A stretch of DNA of 64,000 bases from Roseburia hominis (GTDB taxonomy: Bacteria; Bacillota; Clostridia; Lachnospirales; Lachnospiraceae). Below are positions 7,858 through 52,261 of the stretch, piece by piece; within the stretch, counting starts at the first letter, position 1; each line of letters starts with the position of its first letter. The stretch covers positions 4,154,001-4,218,000 of the forward strand of contig CP159990.1 in assembly GCA_040702975.1 (NCBI GenBank). The letters run 5' to 3'. A program made the translations under genes and the position numbers. Below the pieces are notes generated by a model that was given only the letters and a program-made list of their open reading frames with translations, did no database searches and was not told the origin of the DNA.

Positions 7858-8352
7858 TTACCTGAAAGAAGTCCTTTCATAGGCCAGCCTCTTTGTCCCA
7901 TCTGCGACATAAATGATTCCCCGATATGTGAATCCATTCTTTTCCAGCACATGACGCATCGGCCCGTTTTTTTCATGTGTATCGATTCTGAGATGCCCGT
8001 CGGCTTCCTCGAGCGCCCAATTAAGGCAAAATGATGCAACGCCATGACTTTCTCTGGCCGAAGCAATTCTATGAATTACTCCGTATGCCGAATCATTTTT
8101 CCAGGCTCCCTCATATATTTTTGCATAAGTCGGCTCCTCCATTATCTTAAAGAAGAAGGTTCCCAGCACCCGGTCCCCGTCGGTACATACATAGCTGTCC
8201 CCGTCCCGAATATCCTGCTCGATCCGTGCTCTTTCCGGTCTGGTCGTTCCCCACTGTGTCGGATTCCCGCTCTCCCGCATAAATACTCTCGCATCTTCAT
8301 AGAGCTCCATGAGCCGCTCCAAATCTTCTGTTCTGGTCTTCCGAATCTGCAT
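7858..8352 (-). CDS. GNAT family N-acetyltransferase
   Basis: A 164-residue GNAT protein. It begins MQIRKTRTEDLERLMELY, and has a central strand VLGTFFFKI, a helix region with RIASARESHGVASFCLNWA (acetyl-CoA-binding region) and the C-terminal signature VLEKNGFTYRGI. The substrate cannot be told. It follows the BFD-like gene by 33 bases on the same strand and may be co-transcribed with the ferritin pair. Confidence 0.82.
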   Translation of the reverse strand: MQIRKTRTEDLERLMELYEDARVFMRESGNPTQWGTTRPERARIEQDIRDGDSYVCTDGDRVLGTFFFKIMEEPTYAKIYEGAWKNDSAYGVIHRIASARESHGVASFCLNWALEEADGHLRIDTHEKNGPMRHVLEKNGFTYRGIIYVADGTKRLAYERTSFR

Positions 8353-8385
8353 TTTATTCTCCCGGATATTCCTTCCAGCTTTCCG

Positions 8386-8568
8386 CTATTTTTCTTCAAG
8401 GAGCTTTTTTGTCAGCTTCTTTACTTTTTTCTTGCACTTCCCGCAGCCTTTTCCGGCTTTAGTCGCCTTTTTTACTTCTTTAAATGAAGAGGCTCCCTGT
8501 TCTATCGCGTCTGCTATGTCACCTTTTGTAACATGATAGCATGAGCAGATCACTTTCTTGCGGCTCAT
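8386..8568 (-). CDS. BFD-like (2Fe-2S)-binding protein
   Basis: A 60-residue bacterioferritin-associated-ferredoxin-like domain. Four cysteines in the pattern CSCYHVT ... GCGKC would ligate a 2Fe-2S cluster. The C-terminus is very Lys-rich. Bfd proteins reduce ferritin iron so it can leave the cage. The gene starts 2 bases after the ferritin stop with no ribosome site of its own that I can see, which fits translational coupling and a joint role in iron release. Confidence 0.85.
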   Translation of the reverse strand: MSRKKVICSCYHVTKGDIADAIEQGASSFKEVKKATKAGKGCGKCKKKVKKLTKKLLEEK

Positions 8569-8570
8569 AA

Positions 8571-9083
8571 TTATAATACCAGTGACGGTGCAGAATAAAC
8601 TCTTGCTCCCAGTTCATTATCCAGCATATACAGGCTCTTCGGGTCGTCTCCGAACAATTCGAATTTCTTCACAAGATTGTCTGCATTCGTCTCCTCTTCT
8701 CCCTGCTCCTTAACGAACCAATCCAAAAACTGCATGGTACGGAAATCTTTTACGCTATACGCCGCATCATAAATATTATGTATCAGACTGGTCACGTACT
8801 GCTCATGTTTTAAGCCCTCTGCCAGTACCGCTTTGGCACTCTCCAGAGCAATCGCCGGTTTATCAATCGCTTCCAATACTACCTTTTCACCATTGTTCTG
8901 CAAATACTGCACGAACAACATCGCATGATCCCGCTCCTCCTGAGCCTGAATCTTGTACCAGTTACCAAATCCGTCAAGTCCTTCATCATAATAATAGTTA
9001 GAAAAATCCAGATACAAATACGCTGAATAGAATTCCTTATTCACCTGCTGATTTAATAATTCAACTACTTTTTTATCTAACAT
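8571..9083 (-). CDS. ftnA: Non-heme ferritin
   Basis: A 170-residue ferritin that stores iron as a mineral inside a 24-mer cage. Ferroxidase residues are recognisable: Glu in QQVNKEFYSAYLYL, the QEERDHAM motif (Glu and His), and later glutamates in the helix containing QGEEETNA. Length matches the prokaryotic FtnA family. The ATG at 9083 is preceded by AGGAGG. It is followed immediately by a BFD-like ferredoxin. Confidence 0.93.
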   Translation of the reverse strand: MLDKKVVELLNQQVNKEFYSAYLYLDFSNYYYDEGLDGFGNWYKIQAQEERDHAMLFVQYLQNNGEKVVLEAIDKPAIALESAKAVLAEGLKHEQYVTSLIHNIYDAAYSVKDFRTMQFLDWFVKEQGEEETNADNLVKKFELFGDDPKSLYMLDNELGARVYSAPSLVL

Positions 9084-35422: not shown

Positions 35423-35494
35423 CTCCCCGAGTTGGGTTCGAACCAACGACCCTTCGGTTAACAGCCGAATGCTCTACCGCTGAGCTATCGAGGA
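35423..35494 (-). tRNA. tRNA-Asn (GTT)
   Basis: Cloverleaf on the minus strand: acceptor TCCTCGA/TCGGGGA, discriminator G, D arm GCTCAGCGGTAGAGC, anticodon GTT in CTGTTAACC, T arm GTTGG-TTCGAAC-CCAAC. It is the last gene of the rRNA operon, 121 bases past the 23S end. CCA is not encoded. Confidence 0.95.
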
Positions 35495-35614
35495 TTACTT
35501 ATTTTATTATAACCACTTGTTTTCTATTTTACAAGTGGTTTTTTCCTTTTTTATTTCATGTACCTTCAAAACAGCATACAAAGAATCTTCTTCCATCCAT
35601 TAACCTATCCTACC

Positions 35615-38503
<2,889 letters not shown>

Positions 38504-39031
38504 AAACGCTTCCTCTCACGGGAATGAGAGTCGGCTACACATACTAGCGTGTATGTGTTGGTATTCAGGTTTGTTTTTTTACTTCGTTGTCTCGAAGTGT
38601 CAGTTAATTGTTATCCTTAAGAACAACAATCACCTCGGATGTCTTTCTCTTTTATTTGAGAATTGATTTATCTTTGTATGCAGTTTTCAAGGTACATTCT
38701 GACTGAAATCTTTATCAGTCATTAAAGAACAAAACTCATCGTTTTACCCTTTAATCACTGGTAAAAACCAGTTATCATAACAGCACTGCCCTGCTGATCG
38801 GGTTGGCCGCAGGAGCCCCTCGGTCCTGTGCCTGTATCTATCCTGAAAGACTGACACGGTAGCGAACCGCTCTTCAGCCGCCTGACCGCTCCGGAGCGAT
38901 TCTCCAAAGCATTTCTTATCAAGCTCAGTCTGCTTTATCAGTTTCGGAAGTTCGCCTCACTTTGTTCGACGAACGGCCTAAAAAACTAAGTTCAGCTGCC
39001 TTCCGGCATCTTCACTAACTTTTTTATGGTC
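38504..39031 (-). other. 5S-23S spacer with processing-stem half, no tRNA
   Basis: This 528-base spacer holds no tRNA that I can fold. It carries the 5' half of the 23S processing stem (38669-38693) and several GC-rich inverted repeats. It lies between 5S (upstream in transcription) and 23S. Confidence 0.7.
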
Positions 39032-39148
39032 TCTGGCGGCCACCTGCTCTCCCACACCGTCTCCAGTGCAGTACCATCGGCCGCTTAGGTCTTAACCATC
39101 GTGTTCGGGATGGGAACGGGTGTGACCCCTAAGCGCATCGCCACCAGA
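39032..39148 (-). rRNA. 5S ribosomal RNA, placed between 16S and 23S
   Basis: On the minus strand TCTGGTGGCGATGCGC...GCCGCCAGA, about 117 bases, with the conserved CACACCCGTTCCCATCCCGA loop. It lies between the 16S and 23S genes instead of after 23S. Confidence 0.95.
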
Positions 39149-39355
39149 TATATTCCGTCAATCAACACCGTGAGTGCCGGCTCTCATCTAGCTCAATTCC
39201 GCTCCGCTCCATTTCGCTAGATTCAATCCTTCTTATGCATCTTAGCTGCCATGTGCGCTCCTGAAAGCAAGCTTTCGTCGCACCCCTGCCAGCTAATCTG
39301 CGCACTCACTCCTTGATGACTAAATAACAGACAACAACTCTCCCTACTTCTTCTT

Positions 39356-40893
<1,538 letters not shown>

Positions 40894-45204: not shown

Positions 45205-45828
45205 TTATTCCAGGAACTCCGAGGTTGTATATGCAAATGTCTCATCCAACAGATATTTGTACTTTCTTTTTCCATACTGTGATTTTCCAATTTCCGAAAA
45301 TTTCGCATTATTATCCAAATTATTATTTTTTGTTTCTAACACAATTTCCCCCAGCACATCCATGTATATCAAATCTTCCGATTCTTTTCTTAACGAATAA
45401 TTAATATTTTCACTATATAGATCAGCATCCCCTGTAAGACTTATCGAGCTATAAACCGACTCGCCAAATGCGACATTCTCATTTTTTTCCATATCAACTA
45501 CGACTTCTGCCAACAAACTTCCCACTATTTCTATCCCATTTCCAATACGCTTCTTATTAGGTATCTTTACATAATGCAAATGATAGCTTTCATCTGACAA
45601 ATAGCTGTTTTCTTTATTTATCTGTTCTAATAACTCTGCTGCCTGGACCTGCGAAAGATTATATACCTGGGCATAGGCCTGCGTAAATTCGTCTTTTGTT
45701 ATCTGCACCACGCCCTGGTTCATCTCACTTTCCTGGTGCTGCAATGCTGAATTACTATTCCATATACCAACAAGAACGATAAATAGAATACTACTGACTA
45801 ATATAGCGAATAATCTTTTTTTCTTCAT
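45205..45828 (-). CDS. Secreted/anchored protein, paralogue 2 of an unknown family
   Basis: A 207-residue protein of no family I know. A hydrophobic segment at residues 6-25 anchors or exports it. It is paralogous to the product of 46090-46710: both have an ITxxEF...A helix pair near residue 45, then IYMDVLGEI and KYKYLLDETF near the C-terminus. The start at 45828 has AAGGAGG; the leader TTGTACAAGGAGG is shared with the paralogue. It is followed 11 bases later by an ABC permease gene. Confidence 0.7.
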   Translation of the reverse strand: MKKKRLFAILVSSILFIVLVGIWNSNSALQHQESEMNQGVVQITKDEFTQAYAQVYNLSQVQAAELLEQINKENSYLSDESYHLHYVKIPNKKRIGNGIEIVGSLLAEVVVDMEKNENVAFGESVYSSISLTGDADLYSENINYSLRKESEDLIYMDVLGEIVLETKNNNLDNNAKFSEIGKSQYGKRKYKYLLDETFAYTTSEFLE

Positions 45829-46089
45829 ATCTTCATTCCTCCTTGTACAATTCATAGATAAGATTAATGCTTTTTCAGATATCTACAATGATTGTTTCCA
45901 TTAACGCAGACTTGGAACCTACCAATCAGTGCAACTGTTCTTGCAAGCCAATGCGCGAATCTTTACGGCTTTCGATATATCTATTTTACAACAAACATAT
46001 CAGGCGACTTCTAATACTTAAAAGCCGTCTGATATATAATAATTAAACTAATTTATAAACTTATTTGCTAACATTCGTTTCTTATAAAA

Positions 46090-46710
46090 CTATGGTGTAA
46101 AAGTAAAAGTTGTATCTACCAAATACTTATATCTTGTAGTTCCTGACACTCCTGTTCCTACAGTAACAAACCCCCCTCCAGATATTTCAGTAGTAGTAAC
46201 CATATCAAAATAAATTTCTCCCAACACATCCATATAGATGATACTCTGCGACGGGTGTCTCATATTAATGGACCCACTATAGTTATATAATGTGGCTTCT
46301 CCTCCCGTAGTCAAATGCTTTGTAGCTATAGTGCCAAAACCCACTCTTCTTCCACTCGTTGTTTCCGTTATAACCTCAACCTTGATACGTGCAACTAAGG
46401 TGGCACCATAACCTATATTTTTTGTCCGGGTTAATGTCTCATATCGTATTGTATATAGTGGTGCTCTTGCATTCAGCATCGGGTTTTTCGCATGTTCATC
46501 AGCGACATACTCTTGTGCTTCTTCATATGATATACCCTTTTCCTCAGCTACAGCTTTCAAAAACTCTTCTTCCGTAATCTCTTCTCTAACCAAAATTTCA
46601 TCATTTTCAATAATACACTCAAGATTATCCTCACCTGCTACTGCACTCATTGTTGTGTAAAATACCAAAAGACTGCACATTATTATCAATCCCTTAATTC
46701 GCCTTTTCAT
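46090..46710 (-). CDS. Secreted protein, paralogue 1 of an unknown family
   Basis: A 206-residue protein with a clear signal peptide ending near TTMSAVAGED. Then an acidic helical part (ITEEEFLKAVAEEKGISYEE) and a Thr/Gly-rich, beta-type C-terminal domain with IYMDVLGEI and RYKYLVDTTF. I chose 46710, with AGGAGG at 7 bases; the ATG two codons earlier is too close. A LytTR-type promoter at the lanM stop drives it. It may be an immunity or sensing protein; this is inference. Confidence 0.7.
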   Translation of the reverse strand: MKRRIKGLIIMCSLLVFYTTMSAVAGEDNLECIIENDEILVREEITEEEFLKAVAEEKGISYEEAQEYVADEHAKNPMLNARAPLYTIRYETLTRTKNIGYGATLVARIKVEVITETTSGRRVGFGTIATKHLTTGGEATLYNYSGSINMRHPSQSIIYMDVLGEIYFDMVTTTEISGGGFVTVGTGVSGTTRYKYLVDTTFTFTP

Positions 46711-46774
46711 AGTCATACCTCCTTGTACAATTTCAGTTTCTTTAGAATGTCGACACTCTTTATAACTTGTTTAT

Positions 46775-46843
46775 AGTCTATTACCATTTTCTTCCAGCTT
46801 CAACCCTTTGACCTCGAGCGGTAGTAAATCTGGTCCTAAACGG
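46775..46843 (-). promoter_or_regulatory. LytTR-type promoter overlapping the lanM stop
   Basis: CGTTTAG (46836-46842) and CGCTCGA (46814-46820) are repeats 22 bases apart. Then TTGAAG as -35, 17 bases, and TAGACT (46775-46780) as -10. The layout matches the promoter upstream of the response regulator base for base in spacing. Confidence 0.75.
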
Positions 46844-49800
46844 TATCTCTAATTTCATTTTCGATGCATTCCGATAAGGCATACGCCACCCCACTCCATC
46901 CATTCATCAGCCCATAGCACACCCTTTCCTGATGCAACATCTCCAGACAATTTCCGTTGACTGCATCCGTCAACACTTCTTCAAACCTGTTCCAAAGTTC
47001 CCATATTTCTTCGCTCTTTCCCCATTTCGCTGCCTGCTTTAACATAAGCATATTTCCGCAAGTACCATGACATAAGCACCAACTGTCTCTGATGGGGTAT
47101 TCAAAAAGTGTCTGCAAAGCCCTTTCTGCGTCTTGGTAAATGGTATTCTCCAGCTCTGTACCCTGAACATATTCCATACATTCCAACCGGGATAACAGAA
47201 TCCCAGCTGCGCCATGACACCAGGCAACCGCCCCCGGTTTGTCCTGCTCTATACCTGTTCCACCTTCCACCCGTACATCTCTCCAATTTCTGATTCTTTC
47301 GTCATATAATCGGTCCTCATATTGCAAAATCTTCTTGGCGGTGTTCAGATATTGTTGTTCTCCCGTATCGTTCCACATCTGTAGGAAGGGCAGTAGTATT
47401 CCGCTGTTTCCGTGCGCCATTCCTGCCATGGGCGGCAGGTTTTCTTCCACAATCCACCCCATTCCTTCCTCTACATCCACCGCGGCTTTTTCCAGTAATC
47501 TTAAAGCCTCTTGCGCCTGTTTCTTATAATGCTTCTCTCCCGTCTCCTCATACAAAAACAGAAAAACTCTTGCCGCCCCTGCATTTCCATATAACAAATC
47601 ATAAGTGGTATCCTGTTCTAATATCCGTTCCACAATCCGACTATGTTTTTCCGCATATACCAGATATTTTTCCTGTTTTTCTATCCGATAAAGCAGAAGA
47701 TATGCATATACAATCGAACTTTCTCCTTCATACATTCCGGTAGATGTTGATTGTAGTTTCCTTTTTTCACAAAGACAGTCATCCGTGTATGCAAAGAGCT
47801 TTTTGTCCAACAAGGCTATTATTTCACCTGCTTTTTTTCTGGTATCCACTTTCCTGATTTGATGAAAAAATACCGCCATGCCCGCTATCCCGCTGTAAAA
47901 ATAGAGATTCACCGGCCGCACTTCCCAATTCTGTCTGCTAAATGCCGCCAGTTCGATACCATACCAACTTACGTCTGTTCTTTCTTTGTTAAAAATCGCC
48001 GCCTGGTAAATCCTATCCACCAGTTTTTCAAGGGCCGCCCTTTTTTCTGCTACTTCCACTTTTCTCCTGTTCGCACATTTTTTCGAAAGCCAGGCATTTC
48101 GATGACGCACGCGGTTATGAAGCTGTCTCTTTTTATCCGGCATCAGTTCCATAGACAAACGGATAAAGTCACACTGTCGTTCCATATCTTCCGGATTCAA
48201 AAATTCCACTTTATCAAAAACCCATTCTATCACCGGCGTCTCAAAGTAGTCCTTGATTCTCTTTCCTCGAAAATCTTGTAAATCTTTCGATTTCAAATTA
48301 TAGCGAAAATAAGGGATGTCACCATTTACCATATCTTGAATCTCACTCATTATCACCTGTCTGTTCTTCTCTTCCTGTCTCCTTCCGAGCCACATACTGT
48401 GTAGAAAAAGTTCTCTCTTTGCTCCATCTCGCAGAAGCTCGGGGTGATAAGAGGCAGAAAGAAGCATGGCATAACGCTGCGTATCCGCTGCCAAATATCT
48501 GCTGGCAGAAATACTCAATCGTGTGATTTTTTGCTTAAACTCTTCCTTGTCCCTGAGCACCGCATCATATGCTTTCACGAATCCCCGAATTAATGCGTCC
48601 CCATACTCTGCCGGATTGCAAAACACTCCGTTCAGAGTGGCCAAATTATCATTTTTCTCTGTTTTGGGATAAAGATAACAAATCTTCATCTCAGAAGTTT
48701 TGGGGTGTTCCACAACCGGAATCCGGAAGGGATAGACCTGCCCCTCCATTCCTCCAAGAGCACTTGCATTCACACCTTTCCCATCCTGCTTCCACACATA
48801 AAAGGGCAATAGTCCTGTGTAGAGAACGGAATGAGACAATTGGTAAACGATTTCTTCTTCTCCCGTACTTCTCCGATACGTTCCCGGAAGCTGAATCAGA
48901 GTTTCCAAATCTATCAAAACCGGATATGCACCGGCGGCAATCAAATTTTCGCTATGCAAGTCTTTTGTACCCAGCACATAGGCAAGGAACAACTGTACTC
49001 CCAGCCGTTCATAATACGCTGCCAGTTCCCCTTCGCTTTTGCACGCTGCTTTTTTTATCACACTGCACCAACTGTGGGTGGATGTGCTGTGGATATCATA
49101 TTGTCTCTGGTCAATTCCTGTTTTTTTTGCAAACCATTCAAGCAGCTCCTGATGGCACAATTCATTCTCCATGGGGCGGGGCTTGTACATCAATTCCTCT
49201 CCATTTTCCAAGAGAACTTTTGCTACCTGTCGTCCCCCCTGGTGGGTATCTCCCGAAGTCAGCCGGATACTTGCTATACGCGGAACTTCCCTTTCCGTTT
49301 CATAATAATGGACAATTTCCGCAAAGAATTCTGTTTTCCTCCTTACTTCCATTTCCATACATCTGCAAAGTACCGGGTACTCCTTTAGAATCCCCCTGCA
49401 ATAAGACGTATCAGAAAGCAGCTCCTCACAAAAGAAATCATACTCTGCTTCTTTACTTGCCCCTTTTAGATTTCCCTCCTCCTTCTCCCGATGCAATCGC
49501 TCTATCATCGTGCGCATACAGATTGTCTCCAACGCTCTGCCCAGCGCTTCCTGATAATCTTCCATACATTCCGGCGTCCAACAAGGAGATGTTTTTATAT
49601 TCTCCTTTAGTGCCCCGGCACCGGATTTTAAAAAAGGGAACAGAAAGTTGTAAAACAAATAGTCCCCCTTCTCCTTTGTCCGCTCCCAATGCAACAGATT
49701 CCTGTCTGCCTCTCCCCATTCCTGTCTGCTCACCCGAAAGGGTATATCATGAAGATAGCCATAAACAGAAGGTTCTTCCCCGATTTTATGCATCACATCT

Positions 49801-49901
49801 TCTCCTAAAAGTTCCGTCCAATAACGTAGCTTGTCACGATTTTTCTTTCCTTCTCCCTGGTATATCCGTTCAAAAAGATAACTCTTCTTCTCTTCCTTCA
49901 T
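46836..49901 (-). CDS. lanM: Type 2 lanthipeptide synthetase LanM
   Basis: A 1021-residue bifunctional enzyme that dehydrates Ser/Thr and forms thioether rings. The N-terminal dehydratase domain has GDTHQGG (217-223), KPRPM (240-244), KDLHSEN (313-319) and DLETL (331-335). The C-terminal LanC-like cyclase has the zinc ligands in WCHG (894-897) and CLCHG (942-946). All known key residues are present, so it should be active. It lies 50 bases after the precursor gene. No LanT, LanP or LanFEG is in the window. Confidence 0.95.
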   Translation of the reverse strand: MKEEKKSYLFERIYQGEGKKNRDKLRYWTELLGEDVMHKIGEEPSVYGYLHDIPFRVSRQEWGEADRNLLHWERTKEKGDYLFYNFLFPFLKSGAGALKENIKTSPCWTPECMEDYQEALGRALETICMRTMIERLHREKEEGNLKGASKEAEYDFFCEELLSDTSYCRGILKEYPVLCRCMEMEVRRKTEFFAEIVHYYETEREVPRIASIRLTSGDTHQGGRQVAKVLLENGEELMYKPRPMENELCHQELLEWFAKKTGIDQRQYDIHSTSTHSWCSVIKKAACKSEGELAAYYERLGVQLFLAYVLGTKDLHSENLIAAGAYPVLIDLETLIQLPGTYRRSTGEEEIVYQLSHSVLYTGLLPFYVWKQDGKGVNASALGGMEGQVYPFRIPVVEHPKTSEMKICYLYPKTEKNDNLATLNGVFCNPAEYGDALIRGFVKAYDAVLRDKEEFKQKITRLSISASRYLAADTQRYAMLLSASYHPELLRDGAKRELFLHSMWLGRRQEEKNRQVIMSEIQDMVNGDIPYFRYNLKSKDLQDFRGKRIKDYFETPVIEWVFDKVEFLNPEDMERQCDFIRLSMELMPDKKRQLHNRVRHRNAWLSKKCANRRKVEVAEKRAALEKLVDRIYQAAIFNKERTDVSWYGIELAAFSRQNWEVRPVNLYFYSGIAGMAVFFHQIRKVDTRKKAGEIIALLDKKLFAYTDDCLCEKRKLQSTSTGMYEGESSIVYAYLLLYRIEKQEKYLVYAEKHSRIVERILEQDTTYDLLYGNAGAARVFLFLYEETGEKHYKKQAQEALRLLEKAAVDVEEGMGWIVEENLPPMAGMAHGNSGILLPFLQMWNDTGEQQYLNTAKKILQYEDRLYDERIRNWRDVRVEGGTGIEQDKPGAVAWCHGAAGILLSRLECMEYVQGTELENTIYQDAERALQTLFEYPIRDSWCLCHGTCGNMLMLKQAAKWGKSEEIWELWNRFEEVLTDAVNGNCLEMLHQERVCYGLMNGWSGVAYALSECIENEIRDTV

Positions 49902-49951
49902 CTTTCCTCCTTAAAAAGCGAACCTTTCCACAGAAAGATTCGCCTTCCTCT

Positions 49952-50107
49952 TTAACAGCAATAAATTGTTAAAAAAACTCCACATTTCGCAGTATGGGTA
50001 GCACTCATCTCGCTACCTCCCTCCTCGGGTATCAATTTTCTAAATTCTTTCAGTTCCTCTCTCAAATCACCTGTGTTTTTGTTTGCTTCTTTCCTACTTA
50101 ATCTCAT
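49952..50107 (-). CDS. lanA: Lanthipeptide precursor (51 residues)
   Basis: A short peptide whose leader is charged (LREELKEFRKLIPEEGG) and ends in a double glycine at residues 30-31. The 20-residue putative core begins SEMSATHTAK and ends CGVFLTIYCC. It has two Ser, three Thr and three Cys, so up to three thioether rings. The ATG at 50107 has GAGGAGG; this start overlaps the end of the histidine kinase gene by 14 bases. The core does not match lacticin 481, mersacidin or nisin types that I remember. Confidence 0.85.
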   Translation of the reverse strand: MRLSRKEANKNTGDLREELKEFRKLIPEEGGSEMSATHTAKCGVFLTIYCC

Positions 50108-51437
50108 TTTGTCTTTCCTCCTCATTAAAAAATGTAATATCCGTAATAAAGCTGTCAATTTTTACCTGCATCTCTATCTCTCCCTCATACTTTTCCACGA
50201 TTCGCTTGACGCTCTTTACACCCAAACCATGTAACTTCTTGTCCTCTTTTCCGGTCAGGAATTCACTGCCCTCCATCCGAGGAAGGCGGTCTATGCTGTT
50301 CTCAATCCGAATGAATATCATTCCCTGCTTTCTTTCCAACGTGACACAAACCCATCTTTTTCCTTTCTCCATCCTGAGGCAAGCTTCCAGTGCATTATCC
50401 AACAGATTCCCGAACAGAGCACTGATTTCTGCTTCTTTCAAAAGCATCTGAAAATCACTGTCTACATACAGATTCATCTCTATCCCGGCCTGCTCCGCCT
50501 CCCAGAACTTCTGATTTAGAATCAAATTCAGTATTTCTGACCGAGTCCATGGGATTTTTTGCAGCCGCACTAAAGGCTCCTGGATATCATCCAGATAGGT
50601 CCGCAAGTCCTCCAGTCTCCCCTCCCTTGCATAATCACGAAGAATTTGAAAATGATGCTTCATATCATGCTGCAACTGCTGATTTTCCTCCAGAAGCCCC
50701 CTCAGATTTCTATAATTCTCTTCCCGCAACTTATCCCGGCTCCGGATAAATATCATTTCCTGCTTTACATAAGTAATCTTTGCCCACATCCATACAAATA
50801 TACCTGCGACTACCACCATAAGAAACAGGGACAGCGCAATCCCCTTCGTATGCAGGGTTGTGCCTACATCATCGAAGCCTGCCATCGCAATCTGATATCT
50901 GCGGAGTAACACAACCAGTCCCACGCAAAAAAGAACCGTCCCCTTCTTATATGTAGCAAAAATTTCTTTCAACTGCCCGGCTCTCATTTGCATTTCCAAA
51001 AACATCCCCATCATAACACACCTGGTAAACAAAAAGATGCCCACCTTATACCCATTCATTCCAAAGAACACATTCTCAAAAAAATTTACTTTTACTTCCA
51101 TAACGACAAATACTGCCAGAAAATCTACCAGGGCAATCAAAGTGAACCAGATGATCAGCAGACTCAGTGCCATCAATTTCTTCTTAGGAAACAACAAAAG
51201 CAACGGAATGCCTGTCAGAATCACTTGTAAAACAAAAAGGTTCGATGAAAATAATGCTATCTCTCTATTTATCCCCGCCAAAATCCCCATCACCACAGCG
51301 AGTACGTTCATCAGTACTTTTCCTGCCCGTGTGATTTCCTCGTCATTCACCCAGCATACAGTCAAAAAACGGTATCCCAGATACATCTCACCGATACTCA
51401 GCGCCACAACTATGATTCTCATTCCTACTTCTGTCAT
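50094..51437 (-). CDS. AgrC-like GHKL sensor histidine kinase
   Basis: A 447-residue kinase. The N-terminal 220 residues have about six hydrophobic helices, the peptide-sensing domain of AgrC-type kinases. The phosphoacceptor is in QHDMKHHF; the ATPase has the N box GNLLDNALEACL and the G box GLGVKSVKRIV. It overlaps the response regulator gene by four bases and the precursor gene by 14. Likely ligand: the processed lanthipeptide or another peptide; there is no agrBD here. Confidence 0.88.
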   Translation of the reverse strand: MTEVGMRIIVVALSIGEMYLGYRFLTVCWVNDEEITRAGKVLMNVLAVVMGILAGINREIALFSSNLFVLQVILTGIPLLLLFPKKKLMALSLLIIWFTLIALVDFLAVFVVMEVKVNFFENVFFGMNGYKVGIFLFTRCVMMGMFLEMQMRAGQLKEIFATYKKGTVLFCVGLVVLLRRYQIAMAGFDDVGTTLHTKGIALSLFLMVVVAGIFVWMWAKITYVKQEMIFIRSRDKLREENYRNLRGLLEENQQLQHDMKHHFQILRDYAREGRLEDLRTYLDDIQEPLVRLQKIPWTRSEILNLILNQKFWEAEQAGIEMNLYVDSDFQMLLKEAEISALFGNLLDNALEACLRMEKGKRWVCVTLERKQGMIFIRIENSIDRLPRMEGSEFLTGKEDKKLHGLGVKSVKRIVEKYEGEIEMQVKIDSFITDITFFNEEERQNEIK

Positions 51438-52144
51438 AACTTACTCCTGTTTTGATGAATCTCCTTTTTTATCTTAGGCAATAGCCGTCTGCTGACCGGA
51501 AGTACCGTTCCGTCAACCATCACAATGTTATTATCCACGATTCTCTGCATATGGCTGGCGTTGATAATGTAGCCACGCTCAATCTTCATAAAGGGAAATC
51601 CTTCCGCTTCCTGCCACACTGCATCCAGGCTTTCCCGCTTCCGGTATTTTCCGCTCCTTGTAGTAAATTCTACATATTTCCCGTCCTTTTTGATGTACAT
51701 GACATCCGCACGAGGCACCCGCGTCATCTCTCCTACTCTCTCAAGATACCAGTACTTTTCCCTTCTGTCTACCATCCGATTCCCCAGCTTGTTCAGATAA
51801 AAAGGCAGCCGCACCTCCATCTGCTCCTTCATCACATACTGGTACGCTTCCACCTCGTATCCCTCCAGCGCATAACAATCATAAGCAGTCAGATAGATGA
51901 GCGGAATCTGTGCATCTCTCGCCCGCAGCCACTTTCCCAACTCTATCCCGTTCATACTGGGAAGGCCGATATCTGCAACAAGGATATGATACTCTTCCCC
52001 TGCCTCCAACGCGGCAATAAGCGGCTCTGCTCGGGAAAATGTAAGAACCTCCATTTCTTCTTTACATTCCCAGCCAGCCTTTATAATCTCCACTTCTCTT
52101 TTCAACAATTCTTCATTATCTTCTACCAGTGCAATTCGTATCAT
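51434..52144 (-). CDS. AgrA-like LytTR response regulator
   Basis: A 236-residue regulator: receiver domain (Asp58 in HILVADIG, acidic residues VEDNEE, Lys in VMKEQ) plus a C-terminal LytTR DNA-binding domain (ADVMYIKKDGKYVEF ... FMKIERGYIINASH). First gene of the lanthipeptide operon. It should bind the paired repeats at 52228-52261 and 46814-46843. Confidence 0.9.
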   Translation of the reverse strand: MIRIALVEDNEELLKREVEIIKAGWECKEEMEVLTFSRAEPLIAALEAGEEYHILVADIGLPSMNGIELGKWLRARDAQIPLIYLTAYDCYALEGYEVEAYQYVMKEQMEVRLPFYLNKLGNRMVDRREKYWYLERVGEMTRVPRADVMYIKKDGKYVEFTTRSGKYRKRESLDAVWQEAEGFPFMKIERGYIINASHMQRIVDNNIVMVDGTVLPVSRRLLPKIKKEIHQNRSKL

Positions 52145-52190: not shown

Positions 52191-52261
52191 ATTCTACCAT
52201 ATTCTCTTCTATTTTTCATCCTTCTGTCCGCAAACAGTAGTAAATCTGTCCCTAAACGGTC
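52191..52261 (-). promoter_or_regulatory. LytTR-type promoter of the lanthipeptide operon
   Basis: Repeats CGTTTAG (52252-52258) and TGTTTGC (52230-52236) lie 22 bases apart on the minus strand. A weak -35 ATGAAA, a 17-base spacer and TAGAAT (52191-52196) follow. Same geometry and same inner sequence AGATTTACTAC as the promoter at the lanM stop. Confidence 0.75.

Follow-up and report, generated by a model that had tools for sequence, protein, structure and literature searches.

What is a lanthipeptide precursor gene for when it lies between a sensor kinase and a lanthipeptide synthetase? The question is raised by a locus in the window, that is, in the whole stretch of 64,000 nucleotides of Roseburia hominis DNA that was analysed. 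The best explanation, to which we give a probability of about one half, is a self-inducing lanthipeptide signal produced by an Agr-like autoinduction cassette.

A precursor gene between kinase and LanM

The original prediction had placed a 51-residue peptide at 49952..50107. It is present there as claimed, on the minus strand: the open reading frame encodes MRLSRKEANKNTGDLREELKEFRKLIPEEGGSEMSATHTAKCGVFLTIYCC, ends AKCGVFLTIYCC and matches the precursor profile, and its last 20 residues hold the two Ser, three Thr and three Cys that had been counted. The ATG lies inside the gene of an AgrC-like histidine kinase (GHKL; 50094..51437, minus strand, PF14501) with the predicted 14-base overlap, and the ribosome site that had been announced, GAGGAGG, stands just 5' of this ATG within the last kinase codons. 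On the other side, 50 bases separate the precursor stop from the start of the gene for a 1021-residue LanM lanthipeptide synthetase (46836..49901, minus strand; TIGR03897, 744.8 bits for a cut-off of 304); the reading as a LanM precursor placed between this kinase and a LanM whose active-site residues are intact is supported. A LytTR response regulator is encoded at 51434..52144 on the same strand (PF00072 and PF04397 above cut-off). The precursor is more than a chance reading frame: at E ≤ 0.01, a profile built from 41 precursor rows hits 62 protein clusters, among them that of the window, and relatives also lie between kinase and LanM. When the first possible start codon was used, precursor and kinase genes overlapped in 10 of 36 loci, were 0 to 60 bases apart in 23 and further apart in 3; an overlap of this sort is usual within the family. 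We regard the peptide gene as confirmed, real and located as described.

The closest solved relatives of the window LanM are LicM2 and CylM. Dehydratase and LanC domains are both present with their active-site residues, whose functional roles are general knowledge, and the adjoining precursor has a Ser/Thr/Cys-rich C-terminal core. Two features that mark a class II lanthipeptide are thus present, and the third, thioether rings in the product, is predicted. The best solved relative of the kinase is AgrC (E 1.9e-5), and simple hydropathy gives it five hydrophobic segments. After the LanM gene, between 45205 and 46716, two related proteins with hydrophobic N-termini are encoded on the minus strand: a secreted-looking protein of 208 residues, possibly in the same operon (46090..46716), and one of 216 residues with an N-terminal hydrophobic segment (45205..45855), which clusters with it. 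Neither has a family match above cut-off. By a crude hydropathy rule, a secreted-looking protein adjoins LanM in 15 of 38 loci, and these proteins are mostly unrelated to one another. Elsewhere in the window (35423-40892, minus strand) lies an rRNA operon with the order 16S, 5S, 23S, then tRNA, the usual order being 16S-23S-5S.

Two pieces of the precursor are conserved. In the leader it is TGDLREEL (50051..50074, minus strand; AGDLxxEL in the family), a stretch whose loose pattern was found in 49 of 57 precursors, a set chosen partly by the CC end. In the core it is THTAKCGVFLTIYCC (49955..49999, minus strand), also seen in pattern counts: the pattern [ST]x[ST]xxCxxxx[ST]xxCC is matched by the window and by 56 of 105 precursors, and the family core can be described either by this pattern or by just its last five residues. 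L038, L049, L060 and L085, the last with no precursor found, lie outside the sets of 57 and 105. The most conserved piece is the C-terminal T-I-Y-C-C. Of the 62 profile-found clusters, 58 end in [ST]xxCC, and 59 end in [ST]xxxC within four residues. The first Cys is missing from some precursors (for example L048, L051 and L052), and two loci (L049 and L060) have a single terminal Cys.

Two further claims held in part. The GG at the end of the leader exists in the window sequence, but it is not the family's leader end: among 101 precursors it occurs in the window alone, and GA or GS stands at that position in 4. As a processing site the GG was rejected, no other of the 101 precursors having it and the C39 exporter being absent from the 48 clade loci described below. 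The core had also been said to match no classical type. Indeed, the window peptide is hit by no NCBIfam model; its Ser/Thr/Cys order, however, is that of a shortened lacticin 481 or plantaricin C, and the precursors served by the sister LanMs belong to the plantaricin C family. Judged by this order, then, the core is a shortened lacticin-481/plantaricin-C pattern. For the lacticin 481 group, the lipid II motif is TXS/TXD/EC (PMC4985645). Only 3 of 56 precursors carry an acidic residue ahead of the first ring Cys, and the window has Lys there, so this motif is not found here.

Distribution and ancestry of the cassette

The cassette occurs once more in the host genome, a single contig of 4.26 Mb, near 2.61 Mb (L020, G000:C1, about 2610800-2616700). 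The gene order of this copy is S200 (an uncharacterised protein, see below), regulator, kinase, a precursor whose core differs and ends TITMNCTSFFTIICC, and LanM, the latter 41% identical to the window LanM over the aligned part. Comparison of the window LanM with 98 genomes gave matches in 12, host counted, of which 3 were weak (E above 1e-5, cyclase part only). A contig search with a single LanM found no relative; the LanM alignment used as query did. A six-row precursor profile was then compared with 397 genomes of the family. At E ≤ 0.1 it had hits in 43 of them, for the most part marginal ones, and it gave 18 matches in 16 genomes at E ≤ 1e-6, including the host's two. In the 12 stretches around such matches (from 11 genomes, some identical to named loci), a LanM match adjoined the precursor in every case, and the kinase was present in 11, the twelfth stretch ending at a contig edge. 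In L145 the LanM match is a short open reading frame only (8145-8609), beside an intact precursor; in L056 (7977-10782), LanM is split over two reading frames, also beside an intact precursor.

With a protein database added, 105 distinct short LanM precursors were collected. Their loci are mostly from Lachnospiraceae, as are the best-matching named relatives of the window locus. Named carriers include Faecalicatena contorta, F. orotica, Dorea sp. 5-2, Frisingicoccus caecimuris, Schaedlerella arabinosiphila, Merdimonas faecis and Diplocloster species. Several of the precursors P0041-P0073, together with L147, form a natural allele series, in which a near-constant leader, MENRKNENSMNLAGDIRKEM, is followed by many different cores ending TIxCC. 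Searches of open literature showed no description of the family, and text searches for six core endings returned no paper.

The cassette consists, often, of S200, the LytTR regulator, the AgrC-like kinase, the precursor and LanM; apart from the precursor, these were the only gene clusters common to at least 20 of 42 oriented loci. S200, of about 185-260 residues, precedes the regulator in 21 of the 42 (for example L030:4924-5508 and L020:15916-16704) and was not seen ahead of the window's own regulator. Five S200 proteins scanned against Pfam had no match above cut-off, and a predicted model (mean pLDDT 84.8) had no PDB match at E ≤ 0.001, so that neither a known family nor a known fold was retained for it.

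In a FastTree phylogeny of LanMs, the cassette sequences and L085 form one clade of 47 tips (support 0.93), made of L085 and 46 cassette sequences that represent 45 loci, L024 and L053 being an identical locus. The tree and the residue counts leave aside L056, whose split LanM has a piece of less than 700 residues, and L039, which is cut. Ten LanM active-site residues are retained in all 46 cassette sequences. The sister of the clade comprises the LanMs of L042, L046 and L094 (joint support 0.992), loci that possess a C39 exporter and whose precursors score above the NF000539 cut-off, that of L046 ending CTFTVECDQFFTLICCK. Within the clade, a C39 exporter was found in none of 48 loci, compared to 24 of 42 loci outside it; flanks of up to 8 kb, shorter at contig ends, were scanned, and the window was covered instead by a search of the whole host genome, where the only match was a 338-residue protein that is not an exporter. 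As the exporter is missing in many outside loci too, its absence alone is not special, though it is uniform in the clade. No exporter or other neighbour, such as an immunity transporter, is conserved among the 42 oriented loci: ABC ATPases occur in 15, scattered, and L037 and L049 have ABC exporter-like proteins that lack the C39 domain. Nor was an exporter, a leader protease or an AgrB above cut-off found; for AgrB, the host genome gave two sub-cut-off matches only, the better one inside an ABC permease-like reading frame. Taken together, these features make the family look like a lantibiotic lineage that has no export and leader-cutting module of its own and has kept ten active-site residues of LanM.

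There are alternatives to a signal. The cluster could be a decaying relic without function, an idea fed by the loss of exporter and GG leader end, by the split LanM of L056 and by the short one of L145; given that all 46 sequences retain the ten LanM residues, that the core pattern persists over many genera, and that repeats and hairpins recur, we find it very improbable. The product could also be a shortened but otherwise ordinary class II lantibiotic that kills competitors, with kinase and regulator controlling its output by autoinduction or in response to another signal. The intact LanM active site, a core ordered like those of lacticin 481 and plantaricin C and the plantaricin C-family precursors that the sister LanMs serve all speak for it, and variable cores are equally usual in antibacterial peptides. 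On the other hand, LanT is found in 0 of 48 loci, no immunity transporter or other further neighbour is conserved, and the acidic lipid II residue is mostly gone (3 of 56). We consider a plain lantibiotic rather unlikely, although an antibacterial role, alone or alongside signalling, is possible.

Regulation and joint divergence of kinase and precursor

Upstream of the regulator gene lies a LytTR-type direct repeat, ACCGTTTAGGGACA-8-ACTGTTTGCGGACA (52225..52260, minus strand), whose spacing is as expected for LytTR regulators. It is the sole match in the 4.26-Mb genome for both patterns used (up to 3 mismatches; looser spacing). Similar pairs of 9-mers 21 bases apart were found at 11 of 33 operon starts, compared to 1.4 expected, which is the top value of 26 offsets, several of these pairs belonging to other motifs. 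A matrix built from the window and L049 was applied to 31 held-out upstream regions: 12 of them scored p ≤ 0.05, 8 of these even p ≤ 0.01, and a significant repeat was missing from the other 19. No further repeat match that would indicate a wider regulon was found anywhere in the host genome. The visible output is therefore the operon itself, perhaps plus the two proteins after LanM; that no regulon outside the operon is visible would suit a lantibiotic as well.

Two other elements were noted. Between precursor and LanM, a 16-bp hairpin with a T run (49913..49948, minus strand; z -3.43) is a possible attenuator. The stretch after the precursor folds with z ≤ -2 in 25 of 38 loci (mononucleotide shuffles), with differing sequences, and such hairpins would fit partial termination that keeps the precursor above LanM. 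Just 5' of the precursor, the promoter-like TTGACA-16-TACATT (50131..50158, minus strand) is weak evidence for a promoter, 19 such sites being found in the region compared to 16.5 expected.

The main reason for thinking that the kinase reads the peptide is joint divergence of the two genes in two close pairs of loci. The pair table was drawn from 31 loci with a kinase of more than 400 residues and with regulator and precursor found; 33 pairs with LanM identity of at least 45% were listed. L028 and L035, both metagenome assemblies, share 99.6% of amino acids in the regulator and 97.5% in LanM, compared to 77% in the sensor part of the kinase, 86% in its kinase part and 76% in the leader; only 2 of the 9 variable core positions are equal. 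Followed along L028 in 100-base bins, the two agree at 94-100% as far as about 6600, at 67-88% from there to about 8100, and again at 92-100% to the LanM end, the divergent tract also covering about 35 LanM codons. For L040 and L166, S200 (96%), regulator (98%) and LanM (89%) frame a sensor part of 62%, a kinase part of 73% and a core with 3 of 9 positions equal. Here the bins drop to 56-85% from about 6500 to about 8000 of L040, the flanks being at 88-99% upstream and 75-97% in LanM. A control pair, L040 and L057, has a LanM identity of 83%, a sensor identity of 95% and 8 of 9 core positions equal, with no drop at kinase and precursor. In the agr system, specificity groups consist of a variable peptide-kinase pair amid conserved genes, and the arrangement seen in the two close pairs, with kinase and precursor diverging jointly between near-identical regulator and LanM genes, resembles them.

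Other comparisons count against a peptide signal. L040 and L144 have a sensor identity of 65% and a core with 6 of 9 positions equal. L030 and L034, with 70% nucleotide identity in the sensor region, 90% in the precursor and a kinase reading frame shortened in L034, do not clearly fit the pattern of joint divergence. Over all pairs of 24 loci with a full core, core similarity was not correlated with sensor identity (Spearman 0.07; partial correlation with LanM and regulator controlled, 0.03, permutation p 0.365). Most of these pairs are distant, so that saturation may account for the result; yet it lends no support. It lowered our probability for the signal from about 0.55 to about 0.5, made us slightly more reserved about LanM acting in place of AgrB (see below), and raised the two main rivals.

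One of these rivals is the lantibiotic, for which the joint divergence of kinase and precursor would not be required. The other holds that the kinase senses something else and that the precursor is a downstream target, co-carried in recombination tracts: kinase and precursor are adjacent or overlapping, so one tract may bring the precursor along. The lack of an overall core-sensor correlation and the tract that includes the LanM start agree with this, but drops across kinase and precursor occur in two independent pairs, and in L040/L057 a conserved sensor accompanies a conserved core despite a more different LanM. Co-carriage by adjacency alone seems to us improbable.

A candidate signalling cassette and known systems

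Several observations lead us to favour the signal: the placement of the precursor between kinase and LanM recurs from one locus to the next; kinase and precursor form a swap cassette in two lineages, with L040/L057 as control; the repeat is unique in the genome and reaches p ≤ 0.05 in 12 of 31 held-out regions; an acidic lipid II residue occurs in only 3 of 56 precursors; AgrC is the kinase's closest solved structure; and the LanM residues are intact in 46 of 46 sequences. Counting against it are the null correlation, the pairs L040/L144 and L030/L034, the fact that two close pairs carry the case, the 19 of 31 regions with no repeat, the exporter, protease and AgrB that were not found, and the lack of a wider regulon.

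From gene order, intact LanM residues, conserved core, repeat and joint divergence in the two close pairs, all of which are read from the sequences, we infer the following course. LanM would bind the leader at the TGDLREEL region, dehydrate the conserved Ser/Thr residues and close thioether rings with the Cys residues, yielding a small multi-ring peptide. The modified peptide would be exported and its leader trimmed through host factors, by a route not encoded at the locus. The adjoining AgrC-like kinase would then sense it, and the LytTR regulator, acting through the direct repeat, would presumably increase transcription of the operon. A broader proposal, to which we give somewhat less than even odds, is that the cassette is a counterpart of Agr, widespread among gut Lachnospiraceae: LanM replaces AgrB, cells read one another by way of small C-terminal thioether rings, swaps of kinase and peptide create specificity groups, and a general or unknown transporter exports the product. 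If this is true, many exporter-less LanM loci of Lachnospiraceae are communication systems with stable thioether signals, whose specificity could be tested directly on the natural allele pairs L028/L035 and L040/L166. Loci of this kind may then be misclassified in genome mining as antibiotic clusters minus their exporter.

Among known systems, the plantaricin C family (NF000539) is approached through the sister LanMs of L042, L046 and L094, which serve precursors above the model cut-off, and through a leader of the NPAGNxxxEL type and the ending FFTLICC (L046) in common. In contrast, the window peptide has no NF000539 match, and the conserved GG-type end and C39 exporter are missing; of 41 precursors compared with the model, 6 matched at E ≤ 1, the best with E 0.0029 and 18.0 bits for a cut-off of 29. 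With the lacticin 481 group (type AII), whose ring links are established, the family shares the order [ST]x[ST]xxC ... CC and the three Ser/Thr and three Cys of the conserved core, but its core is shorter and comes without the acidic residue of TXS/TXD/EC, the C39 exporter and a conserved GG.

Autoinduction offers a second comparison. Bovicin HJ50 is a lanthipeptide sensed by the kinase of its own cluster, and nisin-type clusters carry exporter and immunity genes. The window locus likewise combines a lanthipeptide with a cluster kinase, sensing being here only proposed, and differs in that no exporter was found and no immunity transporter is conserved beside it in the family. Part of the nisin literature describes nisin, too, as sensed by the kinase of its own cluster, and gives NisK two membrane segments and a large outer region, unlike the five hydrophobic segments of the window kinase.

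The staphylococcal agr system (AgrBDCA) shares with the window family an AgrC-like kinase, a LytTR regulator and a variable peptide-kinase pair amid conserved genes. The difference is that the host genome has no AgrB above cut-off and LanM stands in its place, so that one expects a thioether where agr has a thiolactone. The closest published parallel (PMC10301443) is CA_C0082 of Clostridium acetobutylicum, a LanM-like protein encoded, as here, beside an Agr-type kinase and regulator, and next to agr. In that account, its homologues, of 670-728 residues, are encoded beside agrBD without the zinc and dehydratase residues, and CA_C0082 is dispensable for AIP; the LanM of the window family, in contrast, retains the ten residues in 46 of 46 sequences and has a precursor of its own.
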